Below the pieces are notes generated by a model. The model saw nothing but the letters and a program-made list of their open reading frames with translations, ran no database searches and was not told the DNA's origin. From Polaribacter dokdonensis (GTDB taxonomy: Bacteria; Bacteroidota; Bacteroidia; Flavobacteriales; Flavobacteriaceae), in contig NZ_CP101505.1 of the NCBI RefSeq assembly GCF_024362345.1, positions 1,260,001-1,324,000 on the forward strand: DNA of 64,000 bases, given 5' to 3'. Below, in pieces: positions 4,841 through 35,791 of this stretch (its first letter is position 1; every line of letters starts with the position of its first letter). The translations under genes were made by a program, and so were the position numbers.

Positions 4841-4855
4841 ACGAAAAGGTTTTAG
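4841..4855 (+). promoter_or_regulatory. LacI-type operator candidate between divergent sugar operons
   Basis: The 15 bases ACGAAAAGGTTTTAG form an imperfect AAAA/TTTT dyad. They match 13 of 15 positions of the minus-strand reading of the site at 33885-33899. The site sits in the middle of the 189-bp divergent region, about 86-90 bp from both the fructokinase start and the SSS symporter start, so it could control both. Its centre is GG rather than CG, which makes it the weakest of the three similar sites. No convincing TAnnTTTG element was found in this gap. Confidence 0.5.
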
Positions 4856-4944
4856 TAAACCCAAAATTCAAGTAATATTCGTAAAAAGATATCAAAAGTT
4901 ATTTTTTTCTATATTGTAATTCTAAATCAACTAAACCATTTTTA

Positions 4945-6594
4945 ATGTTATCAATTATTACTTTTATAGGCTTTACTGCTCTAGTTGCTTTTATAGCTTG
5001 GTATGCTACAAGAAAAACAGACGAAACTACTGCTGATGGATATTATTTAGCAGGCAGAAGCCTTGGTGCTATAACAATTGCAGGTTCTTTGTTACTTACT
5101 AATTTGTCTGCAGAACAAATTGTTGGTTTAAATGGTGCAGCCTTTAAGGAAGGCTTAATGGTTATGGCTTGGGAAACTCTTGCTGCAATTGCAATAATAT
5201 TTGCTGCCATCTTTTTGCTACCTAAGTATATGAAATCTGGTATTACAACTATTCCTGAATTTATAGAGACAAGATTTGATAAACAAACCAAAGGATTATT
5301 ATCACTTTTATTTTTAATTGCTTACGCAATTGTATTGTTACCTACCATTTTATATTCTGGTTCTATTGCCTTTAGCACTATGTTTGATTTACCAACTGTT
5401 TTTGGCATTTCTGAGTGGAGTGTAATATGGATTTGTGTTTGGAGTATTGGAATTATCGGAATTATCTATGCTATTTATGGAGGCCTTAAAGCTGTTGCTG
5501 TATCTGATTTAATTAATGCAATAGGACTTTTAGTTGGTGGACTTTTAATACCCATTTTTGGATTATTATTAATTGGTGATGGAAGCATTGTTGATGGTTT
5601 AGAAACCTTATGGAACACAAATCCAGAAAAGTTTAACATGGAAGGTGCAGTAGATTCTTCAATTCCTTTTGGAACACTTTTTACAGGAATGATGTTAGCG
5701 CAAATTTATTATTGGGGAACAAACCAATCTATTTTGCAACGTGTTTTTGCTGCTAAAAGTTTAAAAGAGGGTCAAAAAGGAATGATGTTGGCTGCCTTAA
5801 TAAAATTTATAATTCCCATTATTGTAGTAGTACCTGGTATTATTGCTTTTCATGTTTTTGGAAATGAATTAGGTAATCCAGACCAAGCTTATCCTGCATT
5901 AGTTAAAAAAGTGCTCCCAACTGCTTTTGTTGGTTTCTTTGCTGCTGTTTTGTTTGGTGCTGTGTTAAGTTCTTTTAATAGTTTATTAAATAGTAGTGCA
6001 ACTTTGTTTGGCTTTGATCTTTACAAAATGTACTTTAAAAAAGATGCTACAGAACAAGAAACAGTAAAAGCTGGTAAGAGATTTGGTCTTTTGGTGGCTG
6101 CTATATCTATGACAATTGCGCCTTTTATAATTTATGCTCCAGATGGTTTGTTCAGTTATATACAACAGTCTTTAGGTAGTTTAAGCGTACCTATTTTAGC
6201 TGTGGTTGTAGTTGGTGTATTCTCTAAAAAAGTCCCTGCTATTGGTGCAAAAATCGTATTAACTTTGGGTGTTGGATTATACTTAGTAAGCCTTTTAATA
6301 TTAGAACCCTTATTTAGAAATGCTGCTATAGAAGAAGCTATGGCTCAAAATATTACAGATGCTGCTCAATTAAGTATTATTAAAGCAGAAGCTTACCCTC
6401 ATTATTTGCATGTTATGGGTATTTTATTCGTGTTTAATGTATTGGTAATGTTTATTACTAGTAAAATAAAACCTAAGAAGGATGCTTACATTCCAAAGGT
6501 TACAGATTCTCTAGATGTAACTCCTTGGAGATACACCATAGTTTTTGGAATAATAATTGCCATTCTTGTTTTAGGAACCTACATCATTTTCTAA
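4945..6594 (+). CDS. Sodium:solute symporter (SSS family), probable sugar importer
   Basis: An integral membrane protein of 549 residues with about 14 hydrophobic segments, matching SSS (SLC5-like) transporters. The start region (FTALVAFIAWYATRK, then DGYYLAGRSLGAITIAGSLLLTNLSAEQIVGLNG) is the classic TM1 and LeuT-like signature of Na+/sugar symporters close to vSGLT. It is followed 10 bp later by a GH13 alpha-glucosidase, so uptake of glucose or a small alpha-glucoside is likely. It is divergent from the fructokinase/phosphorylase operon and shares its operator candidate. The substrate is not provable from sequence. Confidence 0.88.
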   Translation: MLSIITFIGFTALVAFIAWYATRKTDETTADGYYLAGRSLGAITIAGSLLLTNLSAEQIVGLNGAAFKEGLMVMAWETLAAIAIIFAAIFLLPKYMKSGITTIPEFIETRFDKQTKGLLSLLFLIAYAIVLLPTILYSGSIAFSTMFDLPTVFGISEWSVIWICVWSIGIIGIIYAIYGGLKAVAVSDLINAIGLLVGGLLIPIFGLLLIGDGSIVDGLETLWNTNPEKFNMEGAVDSSIPFGTLFTGMMLAQIYYWGTNQSILQRVFAAKSLKEGQKGMMLAALIKFIIPIIVVVPGIIAFHVFGNELGNPDQAYPALVKKVLPTAFVGFFAAVLFGAVLSSFNSLLNSSATLFGFDLYKMYFKKDATEQETVKAGKRFGLLVAAISMTIAPFIIYAPDGLFSYIQQSLGSLSVPILAVVVVGVFSKKVPAIGAKIVLTLGVGLYLVSLLILEPLFRNAAIEEAMAQNITDAAQLSIIKAEAYPHYLHVMGILFVFNVLVMFITSKIKPKKDAYIPKVTDSLDVTPWRYTIVFGIIIAILVLGTYIIF

Positions 6595-6604
6595 ATTAAT
6601 ATTT

Positions 6605-8263
6605 ATGAAAAAAACATGGTGGAAAGAAGGTATCGTTTATCAAATTTACCCAAGATCTTATAAAGATATAACTGGAAATGGTATAGGTGATATTCTAGGA
6701 ATTATAGAAAAATTAGATTATATAAAATCTTTAGGTGTAGATATTATTTGGCTATGTCCTGTTTATGAATCTCCTAATGATGATAATGGTTATGATATTT
6801 CAGATTATAGAAATATTTCTGATGAGTTTGGTGGTAATGCAGCTTTTGATTTACTCTTATCTGAAATGCATAAAAGAGGCCTAAAATTACTTATGGACTT
6901 GGTTTTAAATCATAGTTCAGATGAACATGAATGGTTTAAAGAATCTAGAAAATCTAAAGTTAATCCTTATCGTGATTATTATTTTTGGCAAGAAGCAAAA
7001 AATGGTAAAGCACCTAACAATTGGAAATCTTTTTTTAGTGGTTCAGTTTGGAAAAAAGACGAAATTACTGATGAGTACTTTTTACACTTATTTACAAAAA
7101 AACAGCCTGACTTAAATTGGGAAAACCCAAAAGTGAGAGAAGAAATTCACGATATTGTAGAGTTTTGGTGTAAAAAAGGTGTTGATGGTTTTAGAATGGA
7201 TGTGATATCATTAATCTCTAAACAAACTGATTTTCCTGACAGTCATGTACCAAATGATTATGGAGAAACTATAAAAACATATTATGCCAATGGCCCAAAA
7301 ATTCATCAATATTTGAATGAATTGAACCAAAAAGTATTGTCTAAATATGATATTATGACTGTTGGTGAAGGCCCAGGAATCGATTTAGAAACAGGTTTAG
7401 ATTACGTTCATGAAGATAGAGATGAGTTAAATATGATTTTCCATTTTGGTCACATGTTTATCGATAATGGAATTGGAGGTAAATATGACCCTATTGAGGT
7501 TTCTTTACCTATGTTTAAAAAAGTCTTTAATGATTGGGATGACAAAATTTACCCAAAAGGTTGGGGAAGTATATTTTTAGGAAATCATGATTTTTCTAGA
7601 ATGGTTTCACGATTTGGAAACACAGAAAAATATCATAATAAATCAGCAAAACTTTTAGCTCTCTTATTATTTACAATGAGAGGTACAGTTTATGTTTATC
7701 AAGGTGATGAAATTGGAATGACCAATGTTGCTTATCCTGATATTAGTTATTACAATGATGTAGAAACTTTAAATAGTTATAAGGAAGCTTTAGCACAAGG
7801 TAAAGATATGGATGCTTTTCTAAAACTAGTGCACATGCAAAGTAGAGATAATGCAAGAACACCTATGCAATGGAATTCTTCAAAAAATGCTGGATTTTCA
7901 GAAGCTAAACCTTGGTTAGAAGTAAATTCTAATTACAAAAGCATAAATGTAGAAGCACAAGAAAAAAATGAAGATTCTATTTTACATTTTTATAGAAAAA
8001 TGAGTGCTTTTCGTAAAGCAAATAAAGTAATGGTTTATGGAAATTATAAGTGTTTAAATGAAGATGACCCTCATTTGTACTTCTATAAAAGGTATGATGA
8101 TAAGGAAACCTATATTATTCTTTTAAACTTTTGTAACGATACTCAAAAAATTGATAATCAAACATTTGATATAAACAACACAACACTTTGTTTATCAAAT
8201 TACGCTGATAATTCTAACGAATATCTAAATCCTTGGGAAGCTCAGGTTCGTAAATATCTATGA
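6605..8263 (+). CDS. GH13 oligo-1,6-glucosidase/alpha-glucosidase (GH13_31-like)
   Basis: A cytoplasmic 552-residue retaining alpha-glucosidase. It opens with WWKEGIVYQIYPRSYKD and has nucleophile D199 in GFRMDVIS, acid/base E255 in TVGEGPG and D329 in FLGNHDFSR. These numbers coincide with those reported for Bacillus cereus oligo-1,6-glucosidase. The residue after the nucleophile is Val200, the state linked in this family to alpha-1,6 cleavage, whereas Thr or Ala goes with alpha-1,4. It lacks a signal peptide, so it should act on sugars imported by the SSS symporter encoded 10 bp upstream. Isomaltose-type sugars are the favoured substrates; sucrose isomers and trehalose-6-phosphate are alternatives. 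It ends 6 bp from a convergent gene. Confidence 0.9.
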   Translation: MKKTWWKEGIVYQIYPRSYKDITGNGIGDILGIIEKLDYIKSLGVDIIWLCPVYESPNDDNGYDISDYRNISDEFGGNAAFDLLLSEMHKRGLKLLMDLVLNHSSDEHEWFKESRKSKVNPYRDYYFWQEAKNGKAPNNWKSFFSGSVWKKDEITDEYFLHLFTKKQPDLNWENPKVREEIHDIVEFWCKKGVDGFRMDVISLISKQTDFPDSHVPNDYGETIKTYYANGPKIHQYLNELNQKVLSKYDIMTVGEGPGIDLETGLDYVHEDRDELNMIFHFGHMFIDNGIGGKYDPIEVSLPMFKKVFNDWDDKIYPKGWGSIFLGNHDFSRMVSRFGNTEKYHNKSAKLLALLLFTMRGTVYVYQGDEIGMTNVAYPDISYYNDVETLNSYKEALAQGKDMDAFLKLVHMQSRDNARTPMQWNSSKNAGFSEAKPWLEVNSNYKSINVEAQEKNEDSILHFYRKMSAFRKANKVMVYGNYKCLNEDDPHLYFYKRYDDKETYIILLNFCNDTQKIDNQTFDINNTTLCLSNYADNSNEYLNPWEAQVRKYL

Positions 8264-8269
8264 AATTAG

Positions 8270-9436: not shown

Positions 9437-9440
9437 TGGT

Positions 9441-11474: not shown

Positions 11475-11486
11475 GATTTATTGATT

Positions 11487-12524: not shown

Positions 12525-12536
12525 TTAAGGATTTAA

Positions 12537-15622: not shown

Positions 15623-15636
15623 AGATTAAATTTTAA

Positions 15637-16971: not shown

Positions 16972-17140
16972 GTTTTAGTTTTTAATCTTGACAATTACAG
17001 TTTGATAAGGTTTTTAAATTTACCTTATTATTTTTAATTACAAGTGAATTTTAAAGATTGATTGACACCCTTTCTATTAGCAATCTATTTAATAATTTTT
17101 ATAAATAAGAAATATTTAAAAATAAAATTAAGTTGCAACA

Positions 17141-17155
17141 CCGAAAACGATTTAG
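17141..17155 (-). promoter_or_regulatory. LacI-type operator candidate of the alpha-glucoside operon
   Basis: CCGAAAACGATTTAG on the plus strand differs by one base from the minus-strand reading of the site at 33885-33899. The core AAAACGATTT is a one-mismatch version of the palindrome AAAACGTTTT, with the central CpG typical of LacI-family operators. It lies 170 bp upstream of the SUT-like transporter that opens the operon. The gap 16972-17268 otherwise shows only AT-rich sequence and the terminator of the haloperoxidase operon. Confidence 0.55.
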
Positions 17156-17208
17156 GCCATTTATATATGGACCTAGATAAGTCTAAAAAAATTTAATTAA
17201 TACTTATT

Positions 17209-17244
17209 AAAAAAGGTCTTACTCTTTTTACAGAATAAGACCTT
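17209..17244 (-). terminator. Rho-independent terminator after the haloperoxidase gene
   Basis: Inverted repeat AAGGTCTTA (17213-17221) / TAAGACCTT (17236-17244) with a 14-base loop. On the minus strand the second arm runs into a T-rich tract, as expected for termination of the operon ending at 17269. It separates that operon from the alpha-glucoside operon starting at 16971. Confidence 0.85.
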
Positions 17245-17268
17245 CTAAAAATTATAATTTCTTAAAAA

Positions 17269-18621: not shown

Positions 18622-18627
18622 TTACTC

Positions 18628-21600: not shown

Positions 21601-21852
21601 AAAGTAAATATCATCTAAACCATCATTATTTATATCACCTAAAGCAACTCCACCTCCATTATAATAATACAAATATTCAATAATATTTAAATCTCCTTTT
21701 GGAGTTAAATCATTAGAAAAACTAACCCCAGAAAGATTAGCTTTAACTTCTTGAAACTGATTTCTATTTAAATTTTCCGATAATTCTTCTGTGTCATTTT
21801 TAGAACAACCTATGATTACTAATAACGTTATGAAACTTAATTTTTTAATCAT
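18628..21852 (-). CDS. VCBS/FG-GAP repeat lipoprotein with ASPIC/UnbV domain (copy 1)
   Basis: A 1074-residue lipoprotein (LLVIIGC, Cys16). The chain is built of FG-GAP/VCBS beta-propeller blades carrying acidic Ca-binding loops such as GDINNDGLDDIYFT, DYDKDGDMD and DLDLDGDLDIVVNN. An ASPIC/UnbV domain lies at about 505-600 (FLSSSTRKVHFGL), followed by a second set of blades. This CRTAC1-like architecture suggests two propellers joined by ASPIC, exposed at the cell surface or in the periplasm. The molecular role is unknown; ligand binding or adhesion is plausible. It is the last of three paralogues and is 6 bp ahead of the haloperoxidase. Confidence 0.87.
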   Translation of the reverse strand: MIKKLSFITLLVIIGCSKNDTEELSENLNRNQFQEVKANLSGVSFSNDLTPKGDLNIIEYLYYYNGGGVALGDINNDGLDDIYFTANQKADQLYLNKGNLQFENISLKSNISQQDSWSTGVTMVDINNDGLLDIYVCKVGKYKSLQSKNELYINQGDATFKEQAEEYGLDFSGFSTQASFFDYDKDGDMDMYLLNHSVHSTYSYGNKDLREKSDVLAGDILFENQSEKGVQKFMDVTKKAGIYNSALGYGLAITTSDVNKDGFIDIYVGNDFHENDYLYINNGDKTFTESSEKYFNHTSRFTMGVDSGDLNNDTQPDIITLDMMPYKADVFLKSGGEDSDKVNEIKKSFGFQQQYSRNHLQLNQGNEFTDVALYTSTHATDWSWSPLIFDYNNDGFNDVYITNGIYKRPNDLDYINYISNVDFAKYTETLQDTLEQKLIEVMPTLKLQNVLFQNNGDLKFEKTNQNYSKTYSNGAAYSDLDLDGDLDIVVNNINETASILENKTKNKNFITLNIFDDNKGINTNGAKIYLFAEGKTYYKEQNTVKGFLSSSTRKVHFGLANASIVDSLQIIWIDNTSKVVKELAINQENTITKEQTSLYTYTNKTKKELKEFNYQHKENTFLDYEKEGLIPEKLSTEGPSYVQADFNGDGLQDIFIGGARNQEPALFMQNNQGKFSKKKLEIFKEDSMYEDVDAIAFDIDNDNDLDIYALSGGSDYEEGDPLLEDRVYINDGKANFTKLNATLLATNGGSVSCYDFNNDGMLDLFIGSRSIPNAYGLSPFSYILKNTGNTNFEIQFKKRFGMITDSKWADLNNDGLVELILAGDWMPITILSINKEGNLENKTKEFGLNNTNGMWNAIALEDINNDGNLDILAGNIGLNFKWKASVEKPVKMYVDDFDKNYKIDPIIFYNYFGTNVPFATKEKLIQQLPIIKKKFLKYITFAEVNSIEDLDLKETKDILTTKNLYELRSMAFINDGKSFTKIPFPKEAQFSTIEDLYVKDNQVFYTGNFDGFVTELGKSSSNSGGQFLFIDGNFKENKSLNLPRNFFGRKIMPIKKDSLLVLSNNGQSFITNSK

Positions 21853-21854
21853 AA

Positions 21855-24800
21855 TTAATATTTATAAACGTTTAATGAATCGTTATTTCTAGAAATGAAC
21901 AATTGATTTTTAATGACTTGTAAGTCTCTAATTTGCCCATTTACTTTTAAACCTTTTCCTGATTTATGAAATTCAAAATTCAGATTTCCTTTGTTTTCTA
22001 AATAAGTTCCAAAAGAAGCATCATACCTGCCAAATTCAGGTTTTACTCCATTTAAATTACCTCCAAGAATTATGTCTTGATCTCCATCTTTATCAAAATC
22101 TGAAATAGCGATTGCATATACAGGAGAAAGTTGTGCTTCTAAAGGCAGATTTAAAACATCAAAATTAAAATTACCTTGATTTATTAGTGCTAAAGAATTC
22201 AATGTATTTGCCTCTAACTTTGTACTCTCTTTCAATTGTGTTTCTGTAAAAATATCTGAAATTGTTGCATTTTTAAATGATTGATAATCTGGATATTTCT
22301 TGCTTAAGTATTTTAATTGATCTACCAAATTATGACGTAAAGCATATGGATACAATTTACCATCTTTACCAGTAAAAGACAAGATAGGATCTAAGAAACC
22401 ATTTTTATCATAATCATTTACGAACAATTGAATTGGGCTTTCCTTACTTGCCTTAAATCTACTATTTAAACCATGATTACCTAAAACTAAATCTAGATCT
22501 CCATCATTATCTAAATCTGCTTTTTCTAAAGTATTCCACCAACCTTTTAAGTTTGATAAAGGATGATTTTCTAACTTAAAAAAAACTCCGTTTTTGTTTT
22601 CAAAAACATGAACTCCCATAAACTCACCAATTACCACTAAATCTTCAAAATCATCATTATTAAGGTCGATAAATAATGCATCTGTAATCATTCCTAAATC
22701 AGTAAATACTGAAGTATTTGCATTTGAAAAATTTCCTTCACCATCATTTAGCAATAAAAATCCTGAACCTGGCACTCCATAAGAATTAGGTATTGCTCTT
22801 TCTCCTACAAAAAGATCTATATCATTATCATTATCTACATCTGCAACTGTAACTGTGCTTGTACTATGATACCCTTGTTGAGTTGGTAATTTTTGATTTG
22901 ATAAAGTAAAATTTCCTTTACCATCATTCATATATAATTTATCTAAGTAATTAGCGCTAAATTTTGTGGTTTCTATACCTCCACTACAAACGTAAAGATC
23001 TAAATCTCCATCTGCATCTGCATCAAACAAAACACTTTCTGCATCTTCTGCTGATCTTTGTAGATTAAATGCTTCAGATTCTTTTTGTACAAAAGAGTTG
23101 CCTTTCTTTAAAAATATACTAGAAGCTTTTCCTTTTGAACCACCTATAAAAATATCTTCTTCACCATCATTATTTATGTCTCCAACACTCATTTTAGGGC
23201 CTTCTGTACTTCTCATAAATGGCAACAATCTTTCTACATTAAAATCTACATAATTGTTTTCTTTGTGTTTAAAGTCTAAAACCTTATTTACTTTGGTAAA
23301 TAGTTGATTATTAGCTTTATCTAATTGCTTTGTAATTACTGCATCTTTTTCAAAAAGTGTTATAGTTTGGTCTGCTTGCACATTATTTATGGTAGTAGAT
23401 TTACCTGAAGGCCAAATTACGTGTAAAGATAAATTTCCTACATTTTGAAACCCAAAATTAGGTCTATTATCCATAGAAGATTGAAAACCTCTTACAGGTT
23501 GTTGCTCTAAAAAATAATTTTCATCATCATTTGTGAGTTGCAACTTTGCTCCAATAGCATCTTTGTTTGCACCTTCACCTTTTAGAATGACTTTTACATG
23601 ATGGGTATTTTCTACATTATTTCTATATACAAATAATGGCATGTTTACATTATTTACAATCAAGTCTAAATCTCCATCATTATCTAAATCTCCATAAGCT
23701 GCACCATTAGAAAATCCTTTAGTATCTAAACCATTTTGTTCTAATTCAAATTTTAGGTTTCCTTGATTAATGTAAGCATGATTCTTTACTTTATTAGATG
23801 GAATTATATCTATAAGTTTTTTGTAATCTACCTTATCATTTGTAACTATAGATTGTATAATTTCTTGGTTAGACACATATCTCAAGTAATCTTGATCTGT
23901 TAAATCTTTGTAAATACCATTTGCAATAAATAGGTCTTTTAAACCATCATTATTCATATCAAAAAAGATAGCACCCCAACTCCAATCTGATGCTTCTACT
24001 CCACTAAATCTACCAACTTCATTAAAAGTTAAATCGGTATTATTAAGTTGTAGCATGTTTCTTGTAAACTGATGATAATAATCGTTTTTAAGATTGTATT
24101 GGTATTTGTTCCAATCTTCGAAAGTAGTTACTGTTTTTAATCTTTCATATTCACTAGGCAACATTTCTGTTACAAAAATTTCGTTATAACCATCATTATT
24201 AATATCTGCAGCATCTGCACCCATAGATGCTCCACTAATTGAATTAATTGATGTTGTTAACTGCTCTTTAAAAGATCCATTTTGTTGATTAATGTATAAG
24301 TAATCTCTTTCGAAAAAATCATTAGATATATACATATCTTCCCAACCATCGTTGTTAAAATCACTTACTGTAATACCTAAACCAAAACCAATTACACTTC
24401 CATAAATTCCTGCTTGTTCACTAACATCTATGAATTTACCATTTCTGTTTTCGAAAAGTTTATCACCTCCTAAAACATCTCTTTTAGGGCGCTCATTTTT
24501 GGTAAGATTAAAACTACCAATTGCTTGATATGAATTGTTTAATAAATAAACATCTAAATCTCCATCTTTATCATAATCAAAAAAAGAAGCATGCGTAGAA
24601 AAGCCCAAATCTGCTAAACCATATTCTTCAGCACTTTCTGTAAAAGTTAAATCGCCATTATTTATAAATAATTCATTTTGCTTGTTATCTCCCTTAACAT
24701 CACCTGAATTACAAACATAAATATCTAAAAAACCATCTGCATTAATATCTACCATAGAAACTCCTGTAGACCATGCTTTTGTACCAATAACTTTAGCATC

Positions 24801-25115
24801 TTCAGAAATATCTTCGAATTGAAAATCGCCTTTGTTTATGTATAATTTATTGTCTGATAAATTTGAAGTTAAGTATACATCTTGCAAACCATCATTATTA
24901 ACATCACCAATTGCTACTCCTCCTCCATTATAGAAATTTCGGTATTTATAAACATTAAAATCATTGGTAGATTCTAAGTTATTTGCAAAATCAATTCCTG
25001 TCTTTTCTGAGGAGAGTAGTTGGAATTGTGGCAGTTCTTCTTGTTTTTTATCACAAGAGAAAATGATTAACAGCAGAATTAGTGGGAGTTTTCTAAACAT
25101 TCTTTTATTTAACAA
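21855..25115 (-). CDS. VCBS/FG-GAP repeat lipoprotein with ASPIC/UnbV domain (copy 2)
   Basis: A 1086-residue paralogue with lipobox LLIIFSC (Cys21 from the first Met). It has the same order of parts: FG-GAP blades (GDVNNDGLQDVYLT, DYDKDGDLDVYLLN), an ASPIC/UnbV domain at about 498-585 (RGFQSSMDNRPNFGF, HVIWPSG), then a second propeller (DINNDGEEDIFIGG). The stop is 2 bp before the next paralogue and the start overlaps the small lipoprotein gene upstream by 11 bp, so one transcript is nearly certain. A Met at residue 6 is a possible later start and would keep the signal peptide. Confidence 0.86.
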   Translation of the reverse strand: MLNKRMFRKLPLILLLIIFSCDKKQEELPQFQLLSSEKTGIDFANNLESTNDFNVYKYRNFYNGGGVAIGDVNNDGLQDVYLTSNLSDNKLYINKGDFQFEDISEDAKVIGTKAWSTGVSMVDINADGFLDIYVCNSGDVKGDNKQNELFINNGDLTFTESAEEYGLADLGFSTHASFFDYDKDGDLDVYLLNNSYQAIGSFNLTKNERPKRDVLGGDKLFENRNGKFIDVSEQAGIYGSVIGFGLGITVSDFNNDGWEDMYISNDFFERDYLYINQQNGSFKEQLTTSINSISGASMGADAADINNDGYNEIFVTEMLPSEYERLKTVTTFEDWNKYQYNLKNDYYHQFTRNMLQLNNTDLTFNEVGRFSGVEASDWSWGAIFFDMNNDGLKDLFIANGIYKDLTDQDYLRYVSNQEIIQSIVTNDKVDYKKLIDIIPSNKVKNHAYINQGNLKFELEQNGLDTKGFSNGAAYGDLDNDGDLDLIVNNVNMPLFVYRNNVENTHHVKVILKGEGANKDAIGAKLQLTNDDENYFLEQQPVRGFQSSMDNRPNFGFQNVGNLSLHVIWPSGKSTTINNVQADQTITLFEKDAVITKQLDKANNQLFTKVNKVLDFKHKENNYVDFNVERLLPFMRSTEGPKMSVGDINNDGEEDIFIGGSKGKASSIFLKKGNSFVQKESEAFNLQRSAEDAESVLFDADADGDLDLYVCSGGIETTKFSANYLDKLYMNDGKGNFTLSNQKLPTQQGYHSTSTVTVADVDNDNDIDLFVGERAIPNSYGVPGSGFLLLNDGEGNFSNANTSVFTDLGMITDALFIDLNNDDFEDLVVIGEFMGVHVFENKNGVFFKLENHPLSNLKGWWNTLEKADLDNDGDLDLVLGNHGLNSRFKASKESPIQLFVNDYDKNGFLDPILSFTGKDGKLYPYALRHNLVDQLKYLSKKYPDYQSFKNATISDIFTETQLKESTKLEANTLNSLALINQGNFNFDVLNLPLEAQLSPVYAIAISDFDKDGDQDIILGGNLNGVKPEFGRYDASFGTYLENKGNLNFEFHKSGKGLKVNGQIRDLQVIKNQLFISRNNDSLNVYKY

Positions 25116-25683
25116 GTGAATTGTATTTGTATTCTAAATTTTCAATAAGTACAGAGACATCTCTGTCTGACTCTATCTTAACTTGAATTTGTCTGTTGCC
25201 ATCAACTTTTACGATAGCATTATTTTTTGTGGTGATAAATTCGTTTCCTGGATACCATTTTAGCAAAGTATCTTTTACTGCTGGCAACAATTTATCTGAT
25301 TGTAAATCTTTGTTCCAAGGAGCCCAAGCAGAATATGAAAATTTCATATCCATGGCTGTAATCTTATTGTAAGCATTGAATCTTGCATAAAATAGCATAA
25401 CCATTCTTTTAGTGGCTTCAAGACTATCTTTTGGCTCTAAAATAGTTTGCACATAGTCATTATTTTGCCCATGTGTTGCTATACCTTCTTTGTTTAACTC
25501 CCAACAAATATCATAAAATTCTTTTCTGGTTTGCCCAAACTCTAATCCATGAAAAATAGAGTCATATCTATTACCACTTGCCAATTCATCTTTCACCAGT
25601 TTTGTGTAGTCTGATTGACATGAATAGATTAGAAAAAAACTAAAAGTAAAAATTAGAAGTTTATAAATTTTAAATGTTCTCAT
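25105..25683 (-). CDS. Small lipoprotein of unknown function between VCBS paralogues
   Basis: I do not recognise a family. From the ATG at 25683 the product is 192 residues with lipobox FFLIYSC (Cys22). This start leaves a 4-bp gap after the upstream stop; an ATG six codons earlier (25701) would overlap the upstream gene. The body is mixed alpha/beta with aromatic-rich stretches (FSYSAWAPWNKD) and a C-terminal strand-rich part. It ends inside the start of VCBS copy 2 (11-bp overlap). Tight placement between two paralogues suggests a partner of the VCBS/ASPIC proteins, but nothing in the sequence gives a function. Confidence 0.72.
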   Translation of the reverse strand: MRTFKIYKLLIFTFSFFLIYSCQSDYTKLVKDELASGNRYDSIFHGLEFGQTRKEFYDICWELNKEGIATHGQNNDYVQTILEPKDSLEATKRMVMLFYARFNAYNKITAMDMKFSYSAWAPWNKDLQSDKLLPAVKDTLLKWYPGNEFITTKNNAIVKVDGNRQIQVKIESDRDVSVLIENLEYKYNSLVK

Positions 25684-25687
25684 TGAA

Positions 25688-28600
25688 TTAATTGTTATCA
25701 TTTACCTTTAAAAACACTAAGTTTTCGTTATTAATTGTTGTTATAATATAATTTTTATTATTGATTTTTGTTTTATGAAAATCTCTAATTTGGCCTTTAA
25801 TATCTAATGAGGTTACTGCTCCAAATTGAGAACCATAGTCATTACCTAACATTAACCATCCATAAGATGCATCTTGACGTCCAAATTGTGGTTTCACTAA
25901 ATATTGATTTCCTCCAAACAAAACATCTAGTATACCATCATTATTCACATCTAAAGTTTCTATAGCTTCTATATTAGAATATTGAATTTCATTTGGCAAA
26001 CTATGCATGGTAAAAGTATTGTTTTCATTCAAAAATAAAGCTGATTTAGTAACAGTAATATCTCTAAAAATAGCCTTTTCTAATTGTTCTTTTGTAAAAA
26101 TTGTAGCCATGCTTGCATTGGCATAATCTTTATAATAACGCAGTTTGGTTTTTAAACTTACAATTTGCGAGATTAACTCATCTCTATCTAAAATAGGGTA
26201 ATATTTTCCATTTTTAGCATAACAGATTATCTGTTCTACTTTTCCATTATTATCAAAATCAGAGATATAAATACGTAAATTATTTTTGAAAAATGTATTC
26301 TCTCCTTTATTACCTGCAATAATATCTAAATCTCCATCATTATCTATATCTACAGTTTTAAAAGTTTTCCAAAAACCTGAATAGTTTTGTAGTTGATATT
26401 CTATGGTTTTATTAACCAATTGACCCTCAATATTTAAAAAGATAGATATGGGCATCCATTCACCAGAGATGATTAAATCTTTCAGTCCATCTTTATTGAT
26501 GTCTTTCCATTCTGAATCTGTAATTAAACCAAGGTTTTGCAAATCCAATTGCTCAGAAATCACAAAGTTATTATTTCCTTTGTTTTCTAATAAATAACCA
26601 TTTACTGGCAAGCCATATGCTTCGACTTTAAAACGCTCACCAATAAATATATCTTCATCACCATCATTATCATAATCATAAGTACTTACAGTAGATGAAC
26701 TTATAGGTTGTTTAAATGGTAAACCATTTTGTGCTTTGGTAAAGTTACCTAAACCATCATTTATATAAAGACGATCATGCAATAAAAAATCAAATTTTGA
26801 ATAAGATTTTCCTCCACTTGTAACATATAAATCTAAATCACCATCATTATCACTATCAAAAAATACTGCATCTGTGTCTTCTGATGATTTATTTGTAATA
26901 AATGGTTGAGAAACAGATATAAACTCATCTGAATTCTGAGATAAAAACAATTGCCCCAATTGACCTTTTGCACCACCAATATAATAATCTAGTTTGCCAT
27001 CTTTATTTACGTCTGCACTTGCAACATTAGGGCCTTCATTACTAAACATTTCTGGTAGTAATTGCTCTCTATTAAAATCTACAAATTTGTTTTCTTGATG
27101 CTTAAAATCAAATAAAGATGTTTTTTTGGAAATAAAGCTTCTTTCTGAATTTGATGTTAAAAAGTCATATTCATTATTAGTATTAGGTTGATTGTAGGTG
27201 TATTGTTTATTCGTTTTTAGACTCTTAAATAATGATATACTTGAATTTGGCCAAGTAATTTTAAGACTATCAATTTTATCTGTATTTCCAACCCCAAAAA
27301 CTAAGTTTGTTGATACTGAGCTTTGAAATCCTCTTGAAGGATAATTTTCTAAAACACTGTACTTATTATCATAGTATATTTCAGCTTTTGCCCCAATTGC
27401 AAATTTATTTTTTGCTCCACCTAATAATTTAACAGCTACACTTTTATTCTGAGTACTATCAGTTTGATTTTCATAAATAAAAGCAGGCATATTTACATTG
27501 TTAACTACCAAATCTAAATCACCATCATTATCTAAATCTGAATACGCACTTCCGTTACTAAAACTAGGTTTTTGCAATCCCCAATCATTAGTTTTATCTT
27601 CAAAATTAAAATCACCTAGATTTTTATGCATTGAATTTGGAAGGGCTTTAGAAGGCATTAATTCAATTAAATTTTGAATTACATCACTCCCATTTTTAAT
27701 CATTTCTTTAATACGTTTGCCATCCTCCATATAATTCAGATAGTCTCTATCTAACAAATCTTTATAAATACCATTACTGATAAATACATCTTTCAATCCA
27801 TCATTATCTGCATCAAATAATAATGAAGACCAACTCCACTCAGAGTTAGAAACATTAGAAAACCTACTTACCTCTAAAAATTTACTTTTTCCTAAGTTTT
27901 GGTGAAGAGCATTTCTACTAAATTGATGATGATAACCGTTTTTAACTGCTGCATCATACTTATTCCAAGATTCAAAAATTGTTTTAGTACGTTGTCTGTC
28001 TAAATTTTTAGGTAACATTTCTGTAACCATAATATCTGTAAACGAATCATTATTTAAGTCTGCTGCATCTGCACCCATAGAACCCATAGAAATAGATTCC
28101 ATTTGACTTGTTAGCTCTTCTTTAAAAGTACCATCTTTTTGATTGATATATAAATAATCTCGCTCAAAAAAGTCATTTGAAACAAAGATATCTGGCCATG
28201 AATCATTGTCATAATCACTAACTGTGATTCCTAAACCAAAACCAATTGCACTAGAATAAATATTTGCTTCTTTAGAAACGTCTGTAAAAAAGCCATCGTC
28301 ATTTCTTAATAATTTATTTCCATTTATAGAAGGCACATCTCTCTGATTCTTAATGAAATCGTAATTACCTACAGAACGTATGGAGTTATTTAAAAGGTAA
28401 CAATCTAAATCGCCATCTTTATCATAATCAAAAAAGTTAGCTTGCACTGCAAGACCTGTAATATTTAAACCATACTTTGCAGATTGTTCAGAGAATGTTA
28501 AATCGCCATTATTAATATACAATTCATTATGTCTGTTTTCTTCTCTTGGTGGACCTGCTTTACATACATAAATATCTAGAAAACCATCATTATTTATATC

Positions 28601-28951
28601 TACAAAACTAACTCCTGAACACCAGCTATCTTTAGAAGCAACCTTAGCTGTTTTGGTAATATCTTCAAATTGAAAATTACCTTTGTTTAAATACAATTGA
28701 TTATCGACTAAATTTCCTGTAAAAAAAATATCATCTAAACCATCGTTATTTATATCACCCAAAGCCACACCTCCACCATTATAAAAGTTCTTATAGGTGT
28801 ATGGATTTAAAGCTTCTGTTACCAATAAATCGTTTGAAAAAGTAATTCCTGAATTGTTCTTTTCTAGAAAGAGGGTTTTATCATTTTTAACATCTTTACA
28901 AGAGGTAAAAATTATAAGAAGTATTACACAAATTCTATAATTAATAGTCAT
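25688..28951 (-). CDS. VCBS/FG-GAP repeat lipoprotein with ASPIC/UnbV domain (copy 3, first in operon)
   Basis: A 1087-residue lipoprotein with lipobox IIFTSC (Cys18). Blades with acidic loops (GDINNDGLDDIFFTG, DYDKDGDLDCYLLN, DADNDGLKDVFISNG) flank an ASPIC/UnbV domain at about 497-585 (RGFQSSVSTNLVFGV, SLKITWPNSS). It is the first gene of the operon, with a -7 element TATATTTG about 55-60 bp upstream of the ATG. It is more similar in layout and phrase order to copy 2 than to copy 1. Expected location is the outer membrane or periplasm; function is unknown. Confidence 0.87.
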   Translation of the reverse strand: MTINYRICVILLIIFTSCKDVKNDKTLFLEKNNSGITFSNDLLVTEALNPYTYKNFYNGGGVALGDINNDGLDDIFFTGNLVDNQLYLNKGNFQFEDITKTAKVASKDSWCSGVSFVDINNDGFLDIYVCKAGPPREENRHNELYINNGDLTFSEQSAKYGLNITGLAVQANFFDYDKDGDLDCYLLNNSIRSVGNYDFIKNQRDVPSINGNKLLRNDDGFFTDVSKEANIYSSAIGFGLGITVSDYDNDSWPDIFVSNDFFERDYLYINQKDGTFKEELTSQMESISMGSMGADAADLNNDSFTDIMVTEMLPKNLDRQRTKTIFESWNKYDAAVKNGYHHQFSRNALHQNLGKSKFLEVSRFSNVSNSEWSWSSLLFDADNDGLKDVFISNGIYKDLLDRDYLNYMEDGKRIKEMIKNGSDVIQNLIELMPSKALPNSMHKNLGDFNFEDKTNDWGLQKPSFSNGSAYSDLDNDGDLDLVVNNVNMPAFIYENQTDSTQNKSVAVKLLGGAKNKFAIGAKAEIYYDNKYSVLENYPSRGFQSSVSTNLVFGVGNTDKIDSLKITWPNSSISLFKSLKTNKQYTYNQPNTNNEYDFLTSNSERSFISKKTSLFDFKHQENKFVDFNREQLLPEMFSNEGPNVASADVNKDGKLDYYIGGAKGQLGQLFLSQNSDEFISVSQPFITNKSSEDTDAVFFDSDNDGDLDLYVTSGGKSYSKFDFLLHDRLYINDGLGNFTKAQNGLPFKQPISSSTVSTYDYDNDGDEDIFIGERFKVEAYGLPVNGYLLENKGNNNFVISEQLDLQNLGLITDSEWKDINKDGLKDLIISGEWMPISIFLNIEGQLVNKTIEYQLQNYSGFWKTFKTVDIDNDGDLDIIAGNKGENTFFKNNLRIYISDFDNNGKVEQIICYAKNGKYYPILDRDELISQIVSLKTKLRYYKDYANASMATIFTKEQLEKAIFRDITVTKSALFLNENNTFTMHSLPNEIQYSNIEAIETLDVNNDGILDVLFGGNQYLVKPQFGRQDASYGWLMLGNDYGSQFGAVTSLDIKGQIRDFHKTKINNKNYIITTINNENLVFLKVNDNN

Positions 28952-29005
28952 TAAATGATAAAAATAAATTTATAGATGAAAGATATAAAAATCGATTATT
29001 TGTTT

Positions 29006-29013
29006 CAAATATA
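29006..29013 (-). promoter_or_regulatory. Bacteroidota -7 element of the VCBS/haloperoxidase operon
   Basis: The minus strand reads TATATTTG, an exact TAnnTTTG match, about 55 bp upstream of the first VCBS gene. The susD terminator lies just upstream, which supports an independent transcription unit. No clear -33 TTG box is seen. Confidence 0.6.
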
Positions 29014-29072
29014 AAAATAAGAAGAGGTTAAATTTGAGATTATTTTGCGCTTTTAAAACGCTAGTAAATCTT

Positions 29073-29114
29073 ATAAAAAAATAAAACGGGTTGCTAATAG
29101 TTAAGCAACCCGTT
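29073..29114 (-). terminator. Rho-independent terminator after susD
   Basis: Strong hairpin AACGGGTTGCT (29085-29095) / AGCAACCCGTT (29104-29114) with an 8-base loop. On the minus strand it is followed by a T-rich tract (A-rich on plus, 29073-29084). It lies 27 bp after the susD stop and ends the susCD transcript. Confidence 0.92.
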
Positions 29115-29140
29115 CTTGATATTAAACAAAGTTTAGTAAA

Positions 29141-30748
29141 TTAATATCCAGGATTTTGAGTCAAAGTTCCTCCACTTGCATCAATCTGCTCTTGTGGAAT
29201 TGGGAACAATGTCTTGTGAGCATCGCTGTTAGTTTTCTCCCACCAAGAATCACCCCATTTTCCAAAACGGATTAAATCTTGACGACGCGTAACCTCCATA
29301 AACATTTCTCTACCTCTTTCTGCTAAAAATTCATCAGCAGTTAAAGAGCCTAAAGGAGTTGTTAAACCTGCTCTATTTCTTATAGTATTTACATCAGACA
29401 AAGCCATGTTCCAGTCTCCTGCAGCTCTAGCCATACCTTCTGCTCTTATTAAATATAAATCACCTAAACGTATAATTGGGTAATCATTATCCATATTATC
29501 TTGTCCACCTTGTCTAAAGCTGAATTTCCCTAAACGTGCACCACCTTCTCTAGAAGCATTTGGCTCTAATTCGTTTATTGCTGCTGTATAAGTTAGCTCT
29601 AAATCTGATGATTCTGCATAATCTACAATTACAGATCCTTGATAATCTAATTGAGTACCAATGATAAAGTTCGCTTTTTTACGATCATCTGCAGCATCAT
29701 AAGAATTATAAAATTCTTCTAAAGCTGAATATCCATTCCAAGGCTGAGATGATAAGTTGTACGAAAACTGATTTGCATAGTGCAAAGTCATACGTGCAAA
29801 GTTCATATTTGGTCCTGAAACATTGTCATAAGGAATAGACCAAACCATTTCTGGGTTGTTTCCGTTATTAGGTGCAAAAATAGTTGCATAACCACTTAAC
29901 ATATCTGGATCTGTATCTACTGCAGGTCTTTTACCTGGGTTTTCTACTTGGTATCCACTATCCACTAACATATATCCTCCATTGTCAATTACATACCCTG
30001 CAGCCATTGCAGCTTCTGAATATCTTGGAGTACCTGTATATACTTCAGCATTTAAATATAATTTAGCTAATAAACCTAAAGCTGCGAATTGATTAATTCT
30101 GTAAACTTCTTGGTCTGTTGTTAAAGGACTTGCTGATAAATCCATACCTGCAGTAATAGAAGGTACACCTAAAGCAGCTAATAATTCAGTTTCAACAAAG
30201 TTGAAAACTTGAGCTCTATTTGACTGAGGAGCATCTACACCTGGGGTTGTAACAATTTTTACATTACCCCACATGTCTAATAACCTGTAGTAGAAAAATG
30301 CTCTTAACGCTCTAACTTGAGCAGTTTGATTTGCATCTAAGCTACCAGCTAATAAGTTATTACACTCACCAATTGCACTATACTGCTGACCCCAAGCACC
30401 ATTAATTGGTCCATTAGTAGAAGTATAAGTATGTCTGTGCATGTCAATCCAAATTCCACCATCAAACCAGTCACCACCTTTTTGCGTAATTGCCATTTCA
30501 TCTGAAGATACAGATTGAACTGACCAATAACCACCATGGTTTGCTGATCCTGATTCTCTTAATTGAGCGAATGCAGAGTTTATTGCATCTGAAGGTCCTG
30601 CACCTCCACCATCAAAACTACCAAAAGATGGTTCTGAGCCGTTAAATGATTCTGTTTGTTCACCTACAAGTACTTCATCTAAATCTGTACAAGCGTTGAA
30701 AGAAATCAGAACACAAGAAACTGTAAATAATAAAAGTATTTTTTTCAT
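29141..30748 (-). CDS. susD: SusD/RagB-family glycan-binding lipoprotein
   Basis: A 535-residue outer-membrane lipoprotein (signal ending ISFNAC, Cys20) that caps the partner SusC and captures ligand. SusD features are visible: TPR-like helices with QVRALRAFFYYRLLDMWGNVKIVTTPG, the C-terminal YPIIRLGDLYLIRAEGMARAAGDW, and the end EERGREMF-like segment AERGREMFMEVTRRQDLIRFGKW. It starts 13 bp after susC. The ligand cannot be told from sequence; neighbouring genes suggest a glycoside or oligosaccharide. Confidence 0.95.
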   Translation of the reverse strand: MKKILLLFTVSCVLISFNACTDLDEVLVGEQTESFNGSEPSFGSFDGGGAGPSDAINSAFAQLRESGSANHGGYWSVQSVSSDEMAITQKGGDWFDGGIWIDMHRHTYTSTNGPINGAWGQQYSAIGECNNLLAGSLDANQTAQVRALRAFFYYRLLDMWGNVKIVTTPGVDAPQSNRAQVFNFVETELLAALGVPSITAGMDLSASPLTTDQEVYRINQFAALGLLAKLYLNAEVYTGTPRYSEAAMAAGYVIDNGGYMLVDSGYQVENPGKRPAVDTDPDMLSGYATIFAPNNGNNPEMVWSIPYDNVSGPNMNFARMTLHYANQFSYNLSSQPWNGYSALEEFYNSYDAADDRKKANFIIGTQLDYQGSVIVDYAESSDLELTYTAAINELEPNASREGGARLGKFSFRQGGQDNMDNDYPIIRLGDLYLIRAEGMARAAGDWNMALSDVNTIRNRAGLTTPLGSLTADEFLAERGREMFMEVTRRQDLIRFGKWGDSWWEKTNSDAHKTLFPIPQEQIDASGGTLTQNPGY

Positions 30749-30761
30749 TTTTATGTGTTTG

Positions 30762-33746
30762 TTAAAAATTAATGTTAATTCCTAAAGTAACTGTTCTAGA
30801 AGCAAAGTAATTATATCTTCTATCAATACCAGGAGTTAATGGGTCTGCACCAGCAGTTAAGAAACCTCCATTATCAACTGAACCTCTATCCGTAAATGCA
30901 GGTTCTGGATCTGCACCTGAATAGTTAGTGATCGTAAATAAATTTTGTCCTGTTAAAGATACTCTAATGTCTTTAAAGTATTTGCTGTCTTCAGAGATAT
31001 CAAATGAGTATCCTAAAGAAATGTTATCTAATTTAAGGAAATCTGCTTTCTCAACATATAAAGAACTAAACTTAGCGTTTGTAATGTTTGGATCTGCATA
31101 TTCTGTGTTGATATAGTTATAAGAACCTTGAGAACCAACTCTTGGCTCATAAAATACTCTAAAGTTGTTTACTAAACTGTGACCGAAGGCACCTCTAAAG
31201 AATGCATTTAAATCCCAATTTTTATATCTAACAGTGTGTGTCCATCCTAATTCGAAATCTGGAATACCTTTACCTAATTTAGTTAAATCTCCGTCAATAA
31301 CTCCATCTCCATCAGAATCAACTGCATTACCAAATTCTTGGTTTACATCAATACTACCATCTCCATTTACATCTACAAAGTTCTGGCTACCATTAGTAAC
31401 TGTACCATCCCATAAAGCTCCATAAATTTGACCAATTTCCTGACCTTCTGCAACTAAGATTACGTTAGTATCATTTTGTCCTGGTGCTCCTAAATTACCT
31501 CTTAAACCTGGAAGGTTATAAGAATCTAAAGTAGTTTTGTAACTAGATAAAATTATTCCTGAATTATAAGTTAAATCATTTTTCTTAATGATGTCATAGT
31601 TTACTGCTAATTCAAAACCATTAGTAGATAAATCTCCACCATTTTCAACTCTTCTTCCTGAAGGATATACAGCAATATCTACTGCTCTTTCTAAGATAAA
31701 GTCAGATACTTTTCTAGTATATAAATCTAAAGTAGCATTTAATCTACCAGAAGTAAATTCGAAACCTAAATTAGTTTCTGCTTTCTCTTCCCATTTTAAA
31801 TCTGGGTTAGCATCTGTTAACCTTTGGTTACTTAATAAATTTGAAGTTGGCTCAAATTTAGAGTAAGCTAAACCATAATCAGATGGTAAAGATCCTGTAA
31901 CACCATAACCTAGACGTACTTTGAATAAATCTACGTTGTCTAACTGTAAATATTTATTAAGATCTGCACCAATACCTAATGCTGGAAAAAGACCCCATTT
32001 ATTGTTTTCTCCTAATTTACTAGATCCTTCTCTTCTAATAGATGCATTAAAATAAATTGCATCATCGAAAGTTACATTTAATCTTGTAAAGAATGCTATA
32101 ATCTTCTGGTCTGGAGATTTGTTACTATTAACCTCAATAAAACCACCATTTAATTGATCTTGAGACCATTCTAAAGCGTTGATATACGCTAAATCATCAT
32201 TTGGAAAATCTCCTGCAGCTAAGAAATAGTTAAAGAAATTTTCTTGTTGCCAAGAATAACCAGCAGTAAGTTTAAAGTCTAATTTATCTGTAGGCTTAAA
32301 ATTATAGTCTCCATAAACTTCAAATAATTTAAAGTCTCTGTCTTCTGTATATAATCTTGCTAAACCTTTACGAAATGGATTATCTGCTCCACCTCTAAAT
32401 AAAGAAGTAGTTTTGTAATACTCACCATTAGTTAAGTTCGTAGACTGTTGAGAATATAATGCATTTAAGCTAATATTATCTGTAACAGTATATTTGAAGT
32501 TTGCTGAATATGTAAATTCACTTCTCTCTCCATAATTCTGATTTTGATCCTGGATTGATACTGGATTGAAACTATCAAATAAACCTAAAGTTTCGAAGTA
32601 ACCTCCATAAGGATCACCATTATATGGATAAGGTGAATCCGCACCTAAAACAGGAGCTGTTGGATTATATAAAACTGCATATCTTAAAGCTTCATTAAAT
32701 CCGAAATCAGATTCTCTTTGCGTATAAGATGCATTAAAATCTACTTTTAATTTATCATTTAATAATTTAGTACTTGCTTGAAATCTTGTATTGAATTGAT
32801 CGAAACCAGAATTCTTTAAGATACCTTCTGCATTTCTAAAGTTAGCAGAAACTCTAAAGCTTGTATCATCATAACCACCAGTAATTGCAACATTGTTTAC
32901 TGTTGTTACAGCATTTCTTGTTACTAAATCTAACCAGTCTGTTCTACTTCCTAAATCTGTACCACCTGCAGCAACAAACTCATCACCAGTCATGTTCTGA
33001 ACTTGATTCTGTATAGAAGACATTGCAACAGATCCATTATAAGAAACCTGTGTTTCGCCTGCCCTACCTCTTTTAGTAGTTACAATAATTACACCACTTG
33101 AACCACGAGAACCGTAGATTGCAGCAGCAGAACCATCTTTTAACACTGTCATACTAGCAATATCACTTGGATCGATATTGTTTAAAGAAGCACCAATAAC
33201 ACCATCAATAACAATTAATGGTTGTGAATTAGAACCTACAGTAGAAATACCTCTTAATCTAATTACAGCATCTGTATTAGGATCTCCACCTTTGTTGTAG
33301 ATACTTAAACCAGATACCTTACCTTGTAGTAATTCTGATGCACTGTTTACAGTACCCTTGTTAAAAGCCTCTTCATCTACTTTAGTAACTGAAGATGTAA
33401 TTTCTTTTTTAGTAGTACTACCATAACCAACAACGATAATTTCATCTAATTGATTACTTTCTTCTGATAAAGTTAAATTTATCGTAGAAGATGTACCTAC
33501 AGTTCTTTCTTCAGTCTTATATCCTAAAGATCTAAAAACTAACACATCTCCTTGATTTGCTTTAATAGAGTATTTTCCATCAAAGTCTGTTTGAGTACCT
33601 GTAGTAGTGCCTTTAATATTTACACTCACACCAGGCAAACCACCTGTGGCATCTGAAACAACACCAGTAATAGTTTGACCATACATAATACCACCAACCA
33701 AAAAGAGGAATGGCAGAATTAATTTTTTAAGTAACTTGTTTTTCAT
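30762..33746 (-). CDS. susC: SusC/RagA-family TonB-dependent outer-membrane transporter
   Basis: A 994-residue TonB-dependent transporter with a signal peptide (about 1-23, ending YGQ). An N-terminal carboxypeptidase-regulatory-like domain follows (ITGVVSDATGGLPGVSV, TDFDGKYSI). Next are a TonB-box-like DEIIVVGYG, the plug (LIVIDGVIG, IYGSRGSSGVIIVTTKRG at about 190-225) and a long beta-barrel ending in VTLGININF with a terminal Phe. It imports oligosaccharides across the outer membrane using TonB energy, with SusD as lid. A LacI-type operator candidate lies 139 bp upstream; no anti-sigma/ECF pair or HTCS regulator is adjacent. Substrate unknown. Confidence 0.96.
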   Translation of the reverse strand: MKNKLLKKLILPFLFLVGGIMYGQTITGVVSDATGGLPGVSVNIKGTTTGTQTDFDGKYSIKANQGDVLVFRSLGYKTEERTVGTSSTINLTLSEESNQLDEIIVVGYGSTTKKEITSSVTKVDEEAFNKGTVNSASELLQGKVSGLSIYNKGGDPNTDAVIRLRGISTVGSNSQPLIVIDGVIGASLNNIDPSDIASMTVLKDGSAAAIYGSRGSSGVIIVTTKRGRAGETQVSYNGSVAMSSIQNQVQNMTGDEFVAAGGTDLGSRTDWLDLVTRNAVTTVNNVAITGGYDDTSFRVSANFRNAEGILKNSGFDQFNTRFQASTKLLNDKLKVDFNASYTQRESDFGFNEALRYAVLYNPTAPVLGADSPYPYNGDPYGGYFETLGLFDSFNPVSIQDQNQNYGERSEFTYSANFKYTVTDNISLNALYSQQSTNLTNGEYYKTTSLFRGGADNPFRKGLARLYTEDRDFKLFEVYGDYNFKPTDKLDFKLTAGYSWQQENFFNYFLAAGDFPNDDLAYINALEWSQDQLNGGFIEVNSNKSPDQKIIAFFTRLNVTFDDAIYFNASIRREGSSKLGENNKWGLFPALGIGADLNKYLQLDNVDLFKVRLGYGVTGSLPSDYGLAYSKFEPTSNLLSNQRLTDANPDLKWEEKAETNLGFEFTSGRLNATLDLYTRKVSDFILERAVDIAVYPSGRRVENGGDLSTNGFELAVNYDIIKKNDLTYNSGIILSSYKTTLDSYNLPGLRGNLGAPGQNDTNVILVAEGQEIGQIYGALWDGTVTNGSQNFVDVNGDGSIDVNQEFGNAVDSDGDGVIDGDLTKLGKGIPDFELGWTHTVRYKNWDLNAFFRGAFGHSLVNNFRVFYEPRVGSQGSYNYINTEYADPNITNAKFSSLYVEKADFLKLDNISLGYSFDISEDSKYFKDIRVSLTGQNLFTITNYSGADPEPAFTDRGSVDNGGFLTAGADPLTPGIDRRYNYFASRTVTLGININF

Positions 33747-33884
33747 TTAAAGATTGGGTTTTAGTTAATTTTTTTCAAAAACTACATATTATGCTATTGA
33801 TGAAAAGTGATTAAATTTAATGTAATATTAACAAATTTTTATGATTACGTTATGAATTTAATAAAATTTCTCCGAAAAAATTAT

Positions 33885-33899
33885 CTAAAACGTTTTCGG
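33885..33899 (-). promoter_or_regulatory. LacI-type operator candidate upstream of susC
   Basis: The plus strand reads CTAAAACGTTTTCGG, containing the perfect 10-bp palindrome AAAACGTTTT (33887-33896) with the central CpG seen in many LacI-family operators. It lies 139 bp upstream of the susC start and 12 bp beyond the stop of the DUF1080 gene. It matches the sites at 17141 (14/15) and 4841 (13/15). The rest of the 33747-33910 gap is AT-rich with no clear hairpin. Confidence 0.6.
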
Positions 33900-34693: not shown

Positions 34694-34716
34694 TCTATTT
34701 ATTTATAAATTATAGT

Positions 34717-35775: not shown

Positions 35776-35791
35776 ATTCTAAAATCTTCTT

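Follow-up and report, generated by a model that had tools for sequence, protein, structure and literature searches.

We analysed a 64-kb stretch of the Polaribacter dokdonensis genome (contig NZ_CP101505.1, positions 1,260,001 to 1,324,000; the window hereafter), in which three similar sites, A, B and C, stand ahead of carbohydrate operons and a LacI-family regulator is encoded at 44222. Judged from sequence, the sites are probably operators of one LacI regulon for the uptake and breakdown of sucrose and alpha-glucosides, a reading to which we give a probability of about 0.75; LacI 44222 is the most likely protein to bind C and B, and A may also be among its targets. The claim of the original prediction, that one LacI regulon links the alpha-glucoside operons to susCD, is supported by the operator model that relatives provide, by a site kept in a like position ahead of susC orthologues, and by the single gene run found in relatives. 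The regulon of LacI 44222 is well supported, local and of a known kind, and it is dispersed in the host genome, a single contig of 3.09 Mb with four LacI genes. The sites and the regulator are as follows.

Site A, 4841-4855, minus strand CTAAAACCTTTTCGT; 16-mer 4841..4856, ACGAAAAGGTTTTAGT; candidate LacI operator
Site B, 17141-17155, minus strand CTAAATCGTTTTCGG; 16-mer 17141..17156, CCGAAAACGATTTAGG; candidate LacI operator
Site C, 33885-33899, plus strand CTAAAACGTTTTCGG; 16-mer 33884..33899, TCTAAAACGTTTTCGG; candidate LacI operator
Weak site at the LacI start, about 44205 (44205..44219), plus strand, CTAAAAAGTTTTAAA; kept in the relative G064
LacI-family regulator (LacIw), 44222..45265, plus strand; proposed regulator, with PF00356, PF00532 and PF13377 above cut-off

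Direct reading of the sequence bears out the predicted positions and the agreement of the three sites at 12-14 of 15 positions (A-B 12, A-C 13, B-C 14), and the perfect palindrome AAAACGTTTT is read within site C as expected. All three sites are intergenic, and each stands ahead of the carbohydrate operon assigned to it (fructokinase/SSS, SUT/trehalase and susC). Site A occupies the gap between two divergent genes, the fructokinase-like one (start 4755) and SSS (start 4945), and is flanked by the fructokinase/sucrose-phosphorylase-like operon on the minus strand and the SSS/GH13 operon on the plus strand. Site B is found about 170 bp ahead of the SUT start (16971). Site C is located 139 bp ahead of the susC start (33746) and 12 bp past the end of the upstream gene, with its centre about 146 bp upstream of susC. 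The protein encoded at 44222 is a LacI as predicted, combining the helix-turn-helix domain (PF00356, 50.4 bits against a cut-off of 27) with the sugar domain (PF00532, 103.2 bits; PF13377, 88.9 bits) of the LacI/GalR family. A palindromic operator near regulated genes, usually centred on CG and often present at the regulator's own gene too, is also typical of this family; it is observed for most orthologues, and in the window A-C are the candidates for it. The weaker site claimed at the start of the LacI gene fared less well: the sequence is there, but its matrix score is -5.3 (window rank 21), and the matrix scan finds no recognisable operator at the start of this gene. A promoter search near A, B and C with a simple Bacteroidetes-type consensus gave nothing convincing.

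As a bare 15-mer the motif shows no enrichment over the genome, and evidence that did not depend on the window was needed. Orthologues of LacI 44222 were collected from 97 sampled genomes of the genus and from 80 loci of named genomes (among the matches listed), nearly all Flavobacteriaceae; four of the 80 named loci duplicate genus loci. Leaving out the window genome, G064, the four duplicates and LacI frames shorter than about 850 bp gave 105 upstream regions. The palindrome CGAAAACGTTTTCG is found in 68, 78 and 83 of them at no more than 0, 1 and 2 mismatches, against 2.2, 2.7 and 3.1 for random stretches from the same loci, some of which overlap the true region. It frequently lies inside TCGAAAACGTTTTCGA, the commonest palindrome form in relatives, and frequently occurs as two copies 20-21 bp apart. 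Among the named loci listed, the best site just upstream of LacI has no mismatch in 46, one in nine and two in four (59 of 80). The other 21 have no site with up to two mismatches in the searched region upstream of LacI: in 14 a site is found elsewhere in the stretch, mostly adjoining SusC, GH65, GH32 or sugar-transporter genes (two fall within a LacI frame whose start was probably set too far upstream, and one separates a sugar-transporter gene from an SSS gene), and in seven there is none anywhere in the fetched stretch.

A matrix was built from 144 sites of the relatives, with the window not used. Over the 64-kb window it ranks C (21.7), B (17.8) and A (13.2) first to third, and the fourth match scores 7.1. 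In 100 dinucleotide shuffles of the window, a mean of 0.01 matches reach the score of A and none reaches that of B. With 93 named-record sites, from which five records of the window's genus were left out, the scores are 21.6, 18.5 and 15.2, followed by 9.1; the order is unchanged, as it also is with 51 genus sites.

Genome-wide, the palindrome with up to two mismatches occurs at 29 places, three of them within 653 bp of the A, B and C promoters where 0.006 are expected, and the resulting P of 3e-8 is overstated because the promoters were chosen after the sites had been seen. By matrix score among these places C is second, B fourth and A tenth, a weaker separation than within the window. Fifteen of the 29 places are intergenic by the frame calls. 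Three of these are A, B and C, and two are at the maltose LacI; others precede genes for GAPDH, PGK, enolase, aldolase, pyrophosphatase, and a 158-aa protein followed by pyruvate kinase. Of the last four, one is remote from any called gene, and the others adjoin genes of AsnC type, for aldehyde dehydrogenase and for DHFR/CBM48.

Conservation next to orthologues, the other check proposed, is found in Winogradskyella. For Winogradskyella and similar loci, 11 named genomes were searched and nine were fetched further. In five Winogradskyella loci (G123, G125, G127, G128 and G129), whose SUT orthologues share 82-92% identity with that of the window, the genes form one run: MFS, trehalase, MFS, SUT, (short genes), PAP2, three FG-GAP genes, SusD, SusC, the site and LacI. 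In four of these genomes LacI is divergent from susC orthologues (SusC 55-69% identity), with the centre of the site 149-152 bp before susC; in G128 it is 148 bp before a more distant SusC, and in the window 146 bp. The same order is followed in the window between 33.7 and 12.5 kb. As LacI, susCD, SUT and trehalase are one run in relatives, what was described as two gene groups 13 kb apart is better seen as one locus, the gap being its FG-GAP/PAP2 part. Confluentibacter and Yeosuana show the same run, except that a GH65 gene separates LacI from the site. Hyunsoonleella has its LacI several genes past the run, and a site before fructokinase/GH13 (27.4) there is a counterpart of A. In Seonamhaeicola a site precedes a GH13 gene beside LacI (26.9).

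Within the genus, 21 fetched loci from 20 genomes have LacI divergent from a frame of 871-877 aa, a TonB receptor in the one that was Pfam-tested, and in 18 of the 21 SUT, fructokinase and a sucrose-phosphorylase-like GH13 come next. G027, G097, G078 and G067 have SusC-SusD and FG-GAP genes divergent from LacI, and in G027 and G097 PAP2, SUT, MFS and GH37 trehalase are found further along from LacI/SusC. In G064, LacI is 95% and susC 99% identical to the window genome. Site C is unchanged there, but so is nearly the whole region, and its conservation says little. Site B is kept as a conserved block with the DNA on one side diverged. The letters of site A have changed, with a LacIw matrix score of 13.2 here and 15.9 in G064. 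In a tree the 35 sampled LacI orthologues group as a single clade (100/99.9), separate from 18 rows that together cover the maltose, 1713316, 329-aa and 2396089 LacIs, and the window LacI is nested in a subclade of mostly SusCD-linked orthologues. In G093 the LacI is 96% identical but has lost its start region and carries an internal stop (L189, about 8681-9514), and no susC match is found there at E 1e-100. Also in G093, PAP2 directly adjoins the cupredoxin gene.

The genes of the window around the three sites are the following.

2092-3822, minus strand: GH13 sucrose-phosphorylase-like enzyme (TIGR03852 325.8 bits, just below the cut-off of 334.4)
3835-4755, minus strand: PfkB fructokinase-like protein
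4945..8263, plus strand: SSS symporter and GH13 oligo-1,6-glucosidase-like enzyme
8270-9436, minus strand: MFS transporter
9441-11474, minus strand: GH65 kojibiose hydrolase (NF053734, 1101.3 bits)
11487-12524, minus strand: GH5-type protein
12537-14396, minus strand: GH37 trehalase
14393-15622, minus strand: MFS transporter
15637-16971, minus strand: SUT-type symporter
17269..18621, minus strand: PAP2-family protein resembling a vanadium-dependent haloperoxidase of known structure
18628..28951, minus strand: three FG-GAP/ASPIC-UnbV proteins and a 198-aa protein, belonging to the susCD gene block
29141..30748, minus strand: SusD-type lipoprotein (PF07980)
30762..33746, minus strand: SusC-type TonB-linked receptor (TIGR04056 598.6 bits)
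33911..44101: 3-ketoglycoside-type module between susC and LacI

The closest solved chain to the sucrose-phosphorylase-like GH13 is titled putative sucrose phosphorylase (662.6 bits). For the PAP2 protein, 431 residues align at 699 bits with the solved vanadium-dependent haloperoxidase 4cit from Zobellia. As in a polysaccharide utilisation locus, susC and susD are neighbours and carbohydrate-active enzymes are encoded alongside them; in relatives these genes form one run, and the shared operator candidates would provide the co-regulation within the locus.

The 3-ketoglycoside module comprises 3-keto-disaccharide hydrolases, TIM barrels, Gfo/Idh, Nuc_H symporter, AraC, GMC and cupredoxin genes. 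It lies between susC and LacI (33.9-44.1 kb) here and in G064. Four Winogradskyella loci have the bulk of the module at the far end of the locus, and in the fifth, G128, only two module genes are found in the stretch. In G007, G010, G014 and G086 a 3KDH-type gene is located upstream of a more distant SusC, with further module genes where the stretch reaches. In L305, G081 and G116 LacI also adjoins a 3-ketoglycoside module. An order for the rearrangement events around this block is something we infer from such arrangements.

In the mechanism we propose, LacI would bind the palindrome as a dimer when sugar is absent and keep transcription low. Its targets would be susCD with the FG-GAP/PAP2 genes, the SUT-MFS-trehalase-kojibiose hydrolase genes, the fructokinase/sucrose phosphorylase genes and the SSS/GH13 genes, and a sugar or sugar phosphate would release LacI. 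Here we infer the binding by LacI, repression rather than activation, and the inducer. The inducer is likely to be sucrose or a product of sucrose, because SUT, fructokinase and the sucrose-phosphorylase-like enzyme are the commonest partners of LacI in the fetched loci of the genus. From the synteny, susCD may import sucrose and alpha-glucosides.

Several observations weigh against this regulon. Taken literally, the check that the motif exceeds its background frequency in the genome failed: the bare 15-mer with up to two mismatches occurs at 22 places, against 37 for the reversed control. As a test, the 15-mer pattern search did not separate signal from background, and the matrix of the relatives was used instead. 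Two intragenic places outscore site A genome-wide; with the 51 genus sites A (8.4) is barely above the fourth match (6.8); and the matrix also matches coding DNA in two Winogradskyella loci (14.9 and 16.5). A separate site directly before SUT is found only in G064 among the loci of relatives scanned for it. Sites A, B and C all have CTAAAA instead of CGAAAA in one half. The half-site variant CTAAAA also occurs among the operators of Flavobacterium and Arenibacter loci (L293, L304, L336, L339 and L362).

The alternative that survives best leaves the regulatory link in place and would change only what is imported: susCD and the FG-GAP/haloperoxidase genes would handle another substrate, for example a larger algal glycan or glycoside. 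Three FG-GAP/ASPIC proteins and a haloperoxidase-like protein have no obvious role in the uptake of a disaccharide, which speaks for it. On the other hand, SUT, MFS and trehalase come after the susC block in relatives, and in other relatives a lone TonB receptor replaces susCD beside SUT, fructokinase and GH13. We regard this substrate as doubtful, although compatible with the proposed regulon in all respects except import.

A less probable alternative accepts the sites as LacI operators and has them read by a paralogue, either the widely held LacI 1713316 (or a relative of it), which may govern glycolysis genes, or, for site A, the maltose LacI 104118. The LacI paralogues do share the operator core, and the same palindromic core is found before glycolysis genes, in the host and in relatives, and before maltose LacI genes. 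The 97 genomes of the genus hold 77 exact palindromes, 44 of them within 600 bp of an orthologue of LacI 44222, 11 near a maltose LacI and 22 elsewhere. Among these 22, five precede SusC, six precede a gene of 327-344 aa followed by a GAPDH relative (the gene is phosphofructokinase in three of three tested), three precede a 158-aa gene (with pyruvate kinase behind in one tested), and eight are others, including GH13, E1 dehydrogenase and one coding place. In G007, G010, G014 and G086 the exact palindrome has a 3KDH-type gene on one side and SusC on the other, an arrangement like that of site C, and in G061 it precedes SusC; no orthologue of LacI 44222 is found in these five genomes, which are 71-90% complete, so that the gene may be missed. 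G010, G014 and G086 each encode just one LacI, of 329 aa; G061 has one LacI match, and no LacI match is found in G007. Another LacI may thus serve the palindromes before SusC in such genomes.

In favour of the proposed regulon, in 14 of 14 genomes at least 90% complete and without a LacI match at E 1e-40, neither CGAAAACGTTTTCG nor CGAAATCGATTTCG is found, and among 55 genomes with LacI, 45 have CGAAATCGATTTCG and 34 have CGAAAACGTTTTCG (Fisher 1e-8 and 2e-5, with the kinship of the genomes ignored). The sequence CGAAATCGATTTCG is not purely a promoter element: of 29 loci of relatives among the matches listed, 12 are at GAPDH (nine before the gene and three in a frame running into it), 11 are inside one other conserved coding gene, four are inside other frames and two are between other genes.

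A maltose-type matrix of 28 upstream sites, built without the centre rule, helps to tell the regulators apart. It gives 4.6 for C and 4.8 for B, against 21.7 and 17.8 with the LacIw matrix, so C and B are unlike the maltose sites. Furthermore, the upstream sites of maltose LacI have ACGA...TCGT ends in 28 of 28 loci of relatives examined, whereas B and C have no such ends. Site A fits the maltose matrix as well as the LacIw matrix (13.5 against 13.2), and in G064 better (19.5 against 15.9). Orthologues of the window LacI are physically linked to susC/SUT and the palindrome in many genera; with respect to LacI 1713316, this linkage alone counts. Reading of the sites by a paralogue appears unlikely, and LacI 44222 is preferred, above all for C and B. 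Chance matches in A+T-rich DNA are very improbable: the excess of the reversed control for the bare 15-mer and the two coding places above A would fit them, but the window-free matrix ranks the three sites first, which is strongly contrary for B and C, B is kept in G064 amid change, and another genus has a like-positioned site before susC.

The palindromes before glycolysis genes raise a broader possibility. In the host genome, LacI-type palindromes are observed at 7326, 1968946, 2197607, 2611972 and 2916667 (L261, L259, L274, L277 and L281), before GAPDH, the 158-aa/pyruvate kinase pair, PGK, aldolase and enolase. In relatives they are found before phosphofructokinase-GAPDH and the pyruvate kinase pair, Pfam-tested in L393, L398, L401 and L405 and by position in L397, L399, L408, L410 and L411. 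A Cra-like LacI regulon of glycolysis is possible. More tentatively, and at somewhat less than even odds, Flavobacteriaceae may have a two-tier network on one palindrome, with sugar-specific LacIs (44222 and maltose) and a widely held Cra-like LacI governing glycolysis, namely fructose-bisphosphate aldolase, GAPDH, PGK, enolase, pyruvate kinase and phosphofructokinase. Such a network would explain the palindromes before SusC in genomes without the sugar-specific LacI, and the susC site would then couple sugar uptake at the outer membrane to glycolytic control.

For a susCD locus, the regulon of LacI 44222 offers a testable operator and regulator, where the available parts of PMC3878776 and PMC10316084 name SusR-like, hybrid two-component or ECF-sigma systems instead. 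Gene groups that seem separate in one genome are joined next to the regulator in relatives, as one run that still has the sites. As LacI paralogues share the operator core in these bacteria, assignment of a regulator requires binding tests. A literature search, mostly at the level of listings, returned no description of this operator, which is no proof of its absence from print; the available parts of PMC5507952, PMC12125979 and PMC10766802 do not describe it.

Within the host, the maltose LacI locus (104118, L046) likewise has LacI beside SusC/SusD/SusE and MFS, with a similar operator core. In Bacteroides, the LacI regulons KdgR, UxaR, UxmR and UxuR are assigned to glucuronate, galacturonate and mannuronate, and SusR-like, hybrid two-component and ECF-sigma regulators are named for polysaccharide loci, in the part of PMC3878776 available. 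Those regulons resemble the present one as LacI-family regulators of sugar pathways in the same phylum, found by comparative genomics, but their substrates differ. The dextran locus of Flavobacterium johnsoniae has SusC/SusD and a GH65 kojibiose hydrolase, as the window does, but a SusR homologue as regulator, and the word LacI is absent from the text (PMC10316084).

The sux locus of Xanthomonas campestris consists of the LacI-type repressor SuxR, the MFS transporter SuxC, the TonB receptor SuxA and the amylosucrase SuxB; SuxR represses and sucrose induces, and the similarity of characterised TonB receptors of Bacteroidetes to the Xanthomonas ones is described as not very significant, in the part of PMC1790865 available. 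In both loci, as far as that part goes, a regulator of the LacI type is grouped with a sugar transporter of the inner membrane, a TonB receptor and an enzyme acting on sucrose, and this gene content, with a SUT-like transporter, is also found in the 18 fetched loci of the genus (TonB Pfam-tested in one). The window differs in having a SusCD pair instead of the lone TonB receptor, which many relatives have, and a sucrose-phosphorylase-like enzyme with fructokinase, plus further alpha-glucosidases.

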